Shown piece after piece: positions 42,971 through 45,594 of a stretch of DNA of 54,180 nt. The DNA is from Candidatus Colwelliibacteriota bacterium (GTDB lineage: Bacteria > Patescibacteriota > Minisyncoccia > UBA6257 > Colwellbacteraceae): positions 1-54,180 of the forward strand of contig JAQULQ010000002.1 in NCBI GenBank assembly GCA_028718505.1, read 5' to 3'. Position 1 is the first letter of the stretch. Each line of letters starts with the position of its first letter. The notes under the pieces were generated by a model, which saw nothing but the letters and a program-made list of their open reading frames with translations, was not told where the DNA came from and did no database searches. A program made the translations under genes and the position numbers.

Positions 42971-43312
42971 ATGGAAAAAACAAAAAGTGATTATAGGGTT
43001 TGGGCGGTAGTCGCGTATTTTCTATTCTTCGTTCCCCTTTTGGTGGCAGAGGCAAAGAAGAATGATTTTGTGAAGTTTCACGTTCGTCAGGGCCTGGGGT
43101 TATTAATAACCTTCTTTGTTGCAAGAGTTCTGACCCTAGTTGTTCTCGTGCCCTTGTTTGCAGCAATCGGATTGCTGTCGCTAATTTTAGTACCGATCAT
43201 CAATATTCTGCTTCTGGTTGTGCTGGTCGCGGGTATTGTTAATGCCGCCAGTGGCGAAAAGAAACCCTTGCCAGTAATTGGCGAGTGGTCCGAAAAATAC
43301 TTGAAGATTTAG
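42971..43312 (+). CDS. DUF4870/Tic20-like small membrane protein
   Basis: AYFLFFVPLLVAEAKKNDFVKFHVRQGLGLLI, three TMs. Confidence 0.7.
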   Translation: MEKTKSDYRVWAVVAYFLFFVPLLVAEAKKNDFVKFHVRQGLGLLITFFVARVLTLVVLVPLFAAIGLLSLILVPIINILLLVVLVAGIVNAASGEKKPLPVIGEWSEKYLKI

Positions 43313-43925: not shown

Positions 43926-44001
43926 AACAAAACCCCATTCTTAAGGGTCCTAGTGTCACACGAGAGCAATGGAATCGGCCATTTATAACGAAAGAGAGCT
44001 C
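43926..44001 (-). repeat. Cassette-associated 76-nt downstream element, copy 1
   Basis: Aligns with 44582-44657 with one gap pair (ACAAARCCCCATTNTT...TAGTRTCACA...TGGAATC...TATAAMGAAA). Confidence 0.75.
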
Positions 44002-44042
44002 CGACCCACGAGGAGTCGGAGACTCTCAGTCGTGAGCGGAGC

Positions 44043-44357
44043 TCAGTGGCTAGATGGTTCGATCACCACCAACCAGTCGGAGTAGCCGTCGAGTGGCGTA
44101 CAGATGTCACTGCCGTCGTAGATGATGCAGATGTCATCTGCCTTCACCCAACGATCCCTCTCGATCTCCAAGAAACATCCCTCAGAGGTAACTTCGTAGT
44201 TCCTCTGAACGACCGCCCCGTAGTTGGAGCACCTGGCCTGATCGGAGGCCTGACTCTTGTTGTACAACAGGGTCCCGACGGCGATGACGGCAGCAACGAT
44301 GGCTGCTATCACCAGTAGGACGCCCAGCCCCTTCAGGAGATTCTTGACGAGTTCCAT
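44043..44357 (-). CDS. Cassette A: 104-aa single-TM protein
   Basis: MELVKNLLKGLGVLLVIAAIVAAVIAVGTLLYNKS..., upstream SD GGGAAAGGAAG and sigma70-type promoter. Confidence 0.75.
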   Translation of the reverse strand: MELVKNLLKGLGVLLVIAAIVAAVIAVGTLLYNKSQASDQARCSNYGAVVQRNYEVTSEGCFLEIERDRWVKADDICIIYDGSDICTPLDGYSDWLVVIEPSSH

Positions 44358-44374
44358 CGTCTTCCTTTCCCTCT

Positions 44375-44413
44375 CGCGGATTCAACCATCAAGTCTTGGT
44401 GGCTCAATCCGCG
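44375..44413 (-). promoter_or_regulatory. Cassette A 5'UTR hairpin
   Basis: CGCGGATT...AATCCGCG with an additional internal stem. Confidence 0.75.
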
Positions 44414-44441
44414 ATGGGAGATAGTAAAAGAACGTGCACTG

Positions 44442-44470
44442 TACATACCACGAAATAGATAATGGGTCAA
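44442..44470 (-). promoter_or_regulatory. Cassette A promoter
   Basis: TTGACC - 17 nt - TATGTA on the minus strand. Confidence 0.75.
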
Positions 44471-44581: not shown

Positions 44582-44657
44582 ACAAAGCCCCATTATTGGA
44601 GTCTTAGTATCACATAAAGGGATTGGAATCAGTATGTCTATAAACGAAAAGGAGCCC
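44582..44657 (-). repeat. Cassette-associated 76-nt downstream element, copy 2
   Basis: See copy 1. Confidence 0.75.
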
Positions 44658-44733
44658 GCAGGTTCCTAATCGTTCCTCCCACCAACAATGTGGGTTAGAA
44701 AGTCAAGAGCCGTTGGGCTCAGCTGGGGCTGGT

Positions 44734-45126
44734 TCAGCCGCCAGATGTGTTGATGTCGATGTTGGGGATAATCGTCTCCGGTCGGAACAGGACCCGGTAG
44801 TGATAGACGTCCACTGACACCGGGTCGACCTGCTCGACGAAGTAGGTGACGTTGTCGCTCAACCCCAGGAAGTGCTTCTTGTACTCATTCGGCCCAACCT
44901 TGCACGTCACCGTCAGCTCTCCGGAGTCGTCATGGTTGCCCAGAGAGCACAGACCATCGATCTCCAGCATGTAGGTGTCGGTGATGCCGTTGTAGAACAC
45001 GATTCGCCGGTTGACCTCGAACTGGTCCGCCGCCGTCGAGATGTTCTGCGAGGCAACGTCGGCTTCGCTGCTACACGCAGCCAGAGCCAAGGCCATCAGT
45101 AGGACGAAGACCAAGAGCTTCTTCAT
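44734..45126 (-). CDS. Cassette B: 130-aa lipoprotein resembling actinobacteriophage beta-sandwich lipoproteins
   Basis: Lipobox LALAACSSE; RRIVFYNGITDTYMLEIDGLCSLGN...VTCKVGPNEYKKHFLGLSDNVTYFVEQ...YHYRVLFRPETIIPNIDI; family name is from memory, not a search. Confidence 0.75.
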   Translation of the reverse strand: MKKLLVFVLLMALALAACSSEADVASQNISTAADQFEVNRRIVFYNGITDTYMLEIDGLCSLGNHDDSGELTVTCKVGPNEYKKHFLGLSDNVTYFVEQVDPVSVDVYHYRVLFRPETIIPNIDINTSGG

Positions 45127-45142
45127 TCCGCCTTCCTTTCCT

Positions 45143-45188
45143 TATCGCGGATTCAACCACCAAACATTTAGTAGTTCAATTCGCGATA
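45143..45188 (-). promoter_or_regulatory. Cassette B 5'UTR hairpin
   Basis: TATCGCG...CGCGATA with long internal stem; homologous to the cassette A hairpin. Confidence 0.75.
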
Positions 45189-45214
45189 GGAAATATATAA
45201 AAGAACGCAGTATC

Positions 45215-45243
45215 TATATACCACAAAACAGCGAGGGAGTCAA
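45215..45243 (-). promoter_or_regulatory. Cassette B promoter
   Basis: TTGACT - 17 nt - TATATA on the minus strand. Confidence 0.8.
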
Positions 45244-45247
45244 TGTG

Positions 45248-45594
45248 TGGAGATGGCGGGAATCGAACCCGCGTATGAACCAGTCATGAGAGAACTTGCT
45301 ACAAGCCTAGTTCAGTCTGTTTTAGATAGTGAGCTGAAGACTGAACAAAAAACTCACTACCCGGCTAGAATTAGATTTCCACAGAATCTCCCTAACCAAG
45401 AGAATCAGCGTGAGCTCGAATTATGACACCGCTACCTCCTATCCGAGCATTCGGAGAGCGATGCAGCCCTTAAGCGTAAGCCAGGGCTGGTTGACGATTT
45501 AAGTTTGCACTTATTTCGTGGCGGGGTTATTTAAGAGATCCCCGACTCTGCTTGCGGTTCTCGCAATCAATGATCCAGCTAGCCGATCATCCCC
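45248..45594 (-). ncRNA. ssrA: Transfer-messenger RNA (tmRNA)
   Basis: 5' GGGGATG pairs with 3' CATCTCC; CGCGGGTTCGATTCCCGC T-arm; tag frame GCA AAC TTA AAT CGT CAA CCA GCC CTG GCT TAC GCT TAA; adjacent to smpB. Confidence 0.95.

Follow-up and report, generated by a model that had tools for sequence, protein, structure and literature searches.

The window analysed here, a stretch of 54,180 nucleotides (nt) from a Candidatus Colwelliibacteriota bacterium, carries on its minus strand (positions 44734-45126) a gene for a lipoprotein of the phage-associated VG64 family. We propose that an ancestor of the Colwellbacteria acquired this surface lipoprotein, that its gene was kept in the chromosome as a single-gene unit, as one payload of moron-like cassettes with a common leader, and that the protein likely blocks phage entry or adsorption; we hold this explanation with middling confidence. 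Bacteria of the candidate phyla radiation (CPR) have very small genomes in which many genes lack a known function, and little is known of how these bacteria acquire genes or withstand phages. With its gene fixed at the same site in two genera, the VG64 lipoprotein is a specific candidate for the capture of an anti-phage function, and a leader signature that predicts GC-rich accessory genes offers a handle for searching that gene pool.

A VG64-family lipoprotein gene beside tmRNA

The 130-residue product is a full-length member of the family: the PF25682 Phage_VG64 profile matches residues 2-125 with 189.3 bits (cut-off 27), and phrog_478 matches with an E-value of 5.2e-56. These matches confirm the original prediction of a phage-type lipoprotein in a CPR chromosome. 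A signal peptide with the lipobox LALAAC can be read in the open reading frame (ORF), and the lipobox cysteine, Cys18, is invariant in all 25 aligned family sequences. Further invariant features are R40-R41, C60, C75 and the KKH and LGLSDNV motifs. The generic lipoprotein profile LPAM_1 stays below its cut-off on this ORF (12.7 versus 20).

VG64 was found in two of the 27 genomes of the window's family and, among 379 genomes of the phylum, in the window's own genome alone, where it is single-copy. All Patescibacteria genomes compared are metagenome-assembled genomes (MAGs). The second family copy, in Candidatus Colwellbacteria CG10_41_28 (L005/L017), belongs to another genus and is 81% identical. 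Its layout matches that of the window exactly, with smpB and tmRNA followed by promoter, hairpin and VG64 gene, and with the same leader. Between the two genes the synonymous distance (dS) is 1.09 and the ratio of nonsynonymous to synonymous distance (dN/dS) is 0.12 (Nei-Gojobori), which indicates that the gene is under purifying selection. Elsewhere in the CPR, the Kaiserbacteria copy (L020) is a lone gene adjoining tRNA-Glu, and the copy of Parcubacteria M6-OD1-3 (L025) is a lone gene flanked, judging by the ORFs, by miaA and miaB.

With its own predicted promoter and terminator, the VG64 gene of the window forms, by its sequence, an autonomous transcription unit. The features of this unit (cassette 1), of a second cassette behind it and of the borders of the region are as follows (RBS, ribosome-binding site; GC3, GC content at third codon positions; aa, amino acids):

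44734-45126, minus: VG64-family (PF25682/phrog_478) lipoprotein gene, 130 aa, lipobox LALAAC, Cys18, GC3 0.84
45215-45243, minus: predicted sigma70-type promoter, TTGACT-17-TATATA with TG before the -10 box; starts just 3' of tmRNA and is conserved in seven aligned leaders
45200-45206, minus: GTTCTTT motif, boxA-like, at or near the predicted transcript start, at a fixed 35-38 nt from TTGAC
45138-45193, minus: leader hairpin directly before the RBS, z -6.1 as RNA, covarying across genomes
44651-44666, minus: terminator-like GC-rich hairpin followed by a T run, end of cassette 1, read from the sequence
44585-44627, minus: conserved 3' cassette tail ATGTGATACTAAGACTCCAATAATGGGG, common to cassettes in other genomes
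44355-44470, minus: cassette 2 leader, TTGACC-17-TATGTA, with GTTCTTT at 44427-44433 and a hairpin at 44374-44414
44043-44357, minus: cassette 2 payload, 104 aa with one N-terminal hydrophobic segment, GC3 0.75
44000-44020, minus: terminator-like hairpin of cassette 2, TCCGAC...GTCGGA, likewise read from the sequence
45247-45594, minus: tmRNA gene; cassettes lie directly 3' of tmRNA in four genomes
42971-43312, plus: DUF4870/Tic20-like gene adjoining infC-rpmI-rplT, the far border of the variable region of the genus

In the VG64 leader, GTTCTTT lies 37 nt downstream of the first base of the -35 box. A single hairpin fold of 25 pairs, with a conserved internal mismatch, is common to seven leaders taken from four genomes; nine pairs show changes on both sides, and the covariation score was reached in none of 500 shuffles. 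The leaders fold 5.9-6.3 standard deviations below shuffled sequences. In the window's leader, the purine-rich tract provides one GGAAA for pairing with UUUCC in the 5' arm and leaves a second stretch, GGAAGG, unpaired, an arrangement that might act as a switch. The two leaders of the window are 75% identical over about 120 nt, and no Rfam family matches the leader. The payload of cassette 2 has no homologue in 60 related genomes.

A different role is suggested by the label 'site-specific recombination directionality factor RDF', which phrog_478 and many phage records carry, and by the location of the gene at the 3' end of tmRNA, a classic attachment site. The protein would then be a recombination directionality factor (RDF), the leftover of an element integrated at tmRNA. 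In G380, a genome of the same genus, the tmRNA end CCGCCATCTCCAC is indeed duplicated 151 bp downstream (L201:391-403 and 542-554), an att-like footprint of integration. However, a signal peptide and a lipobox cysteine that is invariant in all aligned members are hard to square with a cytoplasmic DNA-binding cofactor. The window has no second copy of the tmRNA end and no integrase gene nearby, the one XerD-like protein being encoded on another contig, and the VG64 family is present in virulent phages too. Because the lipobox is conserved in 25 aligned sequences we reject the RDF reading, which we consider highly improbable, and the label on phrog_478 is probably wrong.

Llp of phage T5 is a superinfection-exclusion lipoprotein encoded by a phage. 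Ltp of phage TP-J34, also a superinfection-exclusion lipoprotein, has been discussed as a moron gene (PMC3952083). Like VG64, both are small phage-borne lipoproteins with a moron-like distribution, although no sequence relation to VG64 has been shown. The most likely role of VG64 would be to block phage entry, as suggested by analogy with Ltp and other lipoproteins carried by phages and by the occurrence of the family in phages. We hypothesize that a Colwellbacteria ancestor acquired a phage-type VG64 gene, and that it was retained as a unit of promoter, GTTCTTT, covarying hairpin, RBS, GC3-rich ORF and terminator. Transcription from the predicted sigma70-type promoter would be constitutive, and the 5' hairpin may stabilise or tune the mRNA. 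The protein would be exported, lipidated and exposed on the surface, where it may hinder phage adsorption or DNA entry, giving the cell standing protection against phages.

Several points weigh against this proposal. The structure model of VG64 is weak (predicted local distance difference test, pLDDT, 67) with zero PDB matches at E<0.001, and the fold search was uninformative. No PADLOC model matches the gene, and no PF25682 members with a tested function were found. Virulent phages are among the carriers of the family, which makes a role in lytic infection equally possible. The window's genome is a 577 kb Colwellbacteria MAG with an estimated contamination of 7%. An assembly chimera is unlikely, since VG64 occupies the same site in a second, independent assembly.

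Leader-borne cassettes

Phage members of PF25682/phrog_478 share the whole-length match and the invariant residues with the window's protein, but known members are mostly borne by phages and prophages. The window's gene, in contrast, is an isolated chromosomal unit beside tmRNA, with a host-type leader and an outlying GC3. Neighbours of the cassette region are tmRNA, smpB, argS and ileS on one side and DUF4870, infC, rpmI and rplT on the other; there is no prophage around the gene, which therefore does not lie inside a phage or prophage as a moron would. The cassettes resemble phage morons in being single genes of deviant composition with their own predicted promoter and terminator. They differ in lying outside a prophage, in their shared hairpin leader and in the many unrelated payloads found over one host genome.

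In G380 and G379, both of the window's genus, the genes in the interval from tmRNA to DUF4870-infC are different ones, again preceded by this leader. G380 has four such units in tandem, of which the first has a divergent leader, and G379 has two. A terminator and the common 3' tail are present in most of them. In G379, the first cassette is separated from tmRNA by an ORF that resembles a GIY-YIG endonuclease by eye (L200:7708-8025, minus strand).

Searched with a covariance model of the leader, five genomes from three genera gave 3-8 matches each, some of them antisense echoes of the same hairpin, and the other 22 genomes of the family gave none. A full de novo scan (TTGAC, -10 box, strong hairpin and ORF) was carried out in two genomes, that of the window and G380. 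In the window's genome it yielded 12 units, compared with 0-1 in Markov controls. Their ORFs all have a GC3 of at least 0.61 (0.61-0.85); among ORFs of 80 aa or more, 5.9% reach this value. A TTCTTT-like motif (one mismatch allowed), which had not been used in the first scan, is present in every one of the 12 units. At least 12 such units are thus dispersed over the genome, and their payloads are mostly orphans. Specificity was lower in G380, where 7 of 12 matches are GC3-rich (genome GC3 0.395 ± 0.071). No real match was obtained for ten payloads from these genomes in Pfam or for ten in PHROGs. The leaders include hairpins of several unrelated sequence classes.

Across the order, 16 of 244 genomes show the pattern of promoter plus GTTCTTT, at 24 sites in total, and none shows the reversed pattern. 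Beyond the three genera, about half of the sites precede GC3-rich ORFs, a few of them with hairpins, and the rest precede ordinary genes. One orphan payload family of 195 aa (G380 C7:51018; loci L375-L404) is patchily distributed in 30 of 360 genomes of the phylum. Its mean GC3 is 0.63 at a mean flank GC of 0.44, in places 0.8-0.9 and up to 0.91, and the promoters of two members show an exact GTTCTTT at a spacing of 35-36 nt. We found no published account of such CPR cassettes in the open-access literature, and this class of accessory genes seems undescribed so far. We tentatively raise the broader possibility, which we consider somewhat less probable than the proposal for VG64 itself, that Patescibacteria keep a phylum-wide pool of exchangeable GC3-rich cassettes with a promoter/GTTCTTT/hairpin leader. 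The high GC3 would be actively kept, phage genes such as VG64 would be captured, and the region 3' of tmRNA would be one site of exchange.

Separately, G380 (L229) and G379 (L233) have orthologous leaders in front of a small ORF, cysteine-rich and zinc-ribbon-like, which is followed by a membrane-fusion-type efflux gene; this leader unit has been retained at one site in two genomes.

The arrays, in which small unrelated genes stand between repeated flanks, call to mind integrons, and the cassettes could be mobile in the same manner, with the hairpin as recombination site. Tandem single-gene units with common flanks, their rapid turnover between genomes of one genus, and strong imperfect hairpins with a conserved internal mismatch are all in agreement with this explanation. 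However, the hairpin is located in the 5' leader, between promoter and RBS, and not at the 3' end of the cassette; every unit is equipped with a promoter and terminator of its own; and the hairpins belong to several unrelated sequence classes. No IntI was identified, the only significant match in tblastn searches being one XerD homologue (37% identity to E. coli XerD). Mapping against G380 revealed no clean empty sites, and because the flanks in G380 are mostly non-syntenic, such mapping leaves the cassette boundaries undefined. Overall, an integron-like mechanism appears improbable.

Alternatively, the leader may be a nut-like antitermination element, boxA plus hairpin, that lets RNA polymerase read through GC-rich accessory genes. 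The motifs GTTCTTTGAATA, GTTCTTTGACAATTT, GTTCTTTAAAAACTC and, at the Kaiserbacteria VG64 gene, AGCTCTTTGATAAAC resemble rrn boxA, NusB and NusG are present, and TGCTCTTTTGTAA occurs in the 16S rRNA leader of one family member. On the other hand, GTTCTTT is absent from the 16S leaders of two genomes of the same genus, the motif lies at the extreme 5' end of the predicted transcript, and single genes hardly need antitermination. No Rho was found in the window's genome or its close kin, and we therefore reject an anti-Rho role; antitermination as such we regard as doubtful.

The leader can also be compared with the start-associated sequences (SAS) and extended SAS (ESAS) of cluster K mycobacteriophages, imperfect inverted repeats directly upstream of the starts of unrelated genes (PMC3203893). 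Both place an imperfect inverted repeat before the starts of unrelated genes in one genome, but the leader includes a promoter and GTTCTTT and resides in a bacterial chromosome. The 13-bp SAS motif GGGATAGGAGCCC is absent beside the VG64 start codon, where the sequence is AAGGAAAGGAAGGCGGA. A viral source of the leader was rejected: a scan of viral contigs for two hairpin motifs gave a single match, which fell by chance within coding sequence on a phage contig, and the matches to promoter plus GTTCTTT in viral contigs lack a hairpin and a GC3-rich ORF, one of them preceding a tmRNA-like sequence.

Codon composition

The GC3 of the VG64 gene, 0.84, is far above that of the window's ORFs of at least 100 aa (0.52 ± 0.07) and of the genome (0.50 ± 0.06; 434 ORFs of at least 150 aa), in which it is the highest among credible genes. 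The aberrant use of C- and G-ending codons noted in the original prediction is thus borne out. The contrast with neighbouring genes does not extend to the next ORF, the cassette 2 payload (GC3 0.75), which has the same type of leader.

Such a composition could simply reflect recent transfer from GC-rich phages or Actinobacteria, which for a single gene would be the simplest explanation. VG64 is a gene of a phage family, and a GC3 of 0.84 is the same as that of VG64 in phages and hosts of about 65% GC. Generally, the GC3 of VG64 follows local GC (r 0.85, 170 loci), and this tracking holds in the 166 non-CPR loci, whereas the CPR copies, four in number, deviate upwards more than any other of the 170. 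Recent transfer accounts poorly for an excess that is common to unrelated cassette genes in the window's genome and to CPR copies of VG64 in three other lineages, and that persists between two genera at a dS of about 1.1. A CDP-alcohol phosphatidyltransferase gene (PF01066; L253:9261-9923, plus strand, and G380 C3:63404) has the same promoter type and is syntenic and GC3-rich in two genomes (0.64 and 0.72), which indicates that some such genes are old residents. We consider recent transfer unlikely. A high GC3 that is a property of the cassette class, either maintained or repeatedly selected, fits better with the GC3-rich unrelated payloads, the CPR copies in other lineages and the persistence at a dS of about 1. 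By itself, a high GC3 in a CPR gene does not point to a GC-rich donor from which the gene was recently transferred, and the codons, taken in the original prediction as direct evidence of foreign ancestry, are not direct evidence of such a donor.

Distribution of the VG64 family

The search for phage homologues that had been suggested as a check located the family in 797 phage records (tblastn). Mycobacterium phages account for 326 of these, followed by those of Gordonia (79), Bacillus (78), Streptococcus (51) and Staphylococcus (47); further hosts include Streptomyces, Arthrobacter, Sinorhizobium, Proteus, Vibrio, Erwinia and Yersinia. Copies are also present in bacterial genomes of many phyla, with 223 candidate stretches confirmed. 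A family tree, likewise suggested, was run but has too few columns; the CPR copies fall apart from one another in it, without strong support.

Judged by its occurrence in phages of very different hosts, the gene is promiscuous and gives no special pointer to Actinobacteria. The suggested link of the phage pool or host range to that phylum is not upheld, and an actinobacterial origin is rejected as unspecific, since the phage host range is broad and the nearest relatives are not actinophages. The mycobacteriophage copies listed are 54-59% identical to the window's protein. The nearest phage relative is from Sinorhizobium phage AP-16-3 (69.8%), followed by Bacillus and Proteus phages (60-64%), and copies on unassigned viral contigs reach 71-76% identity.
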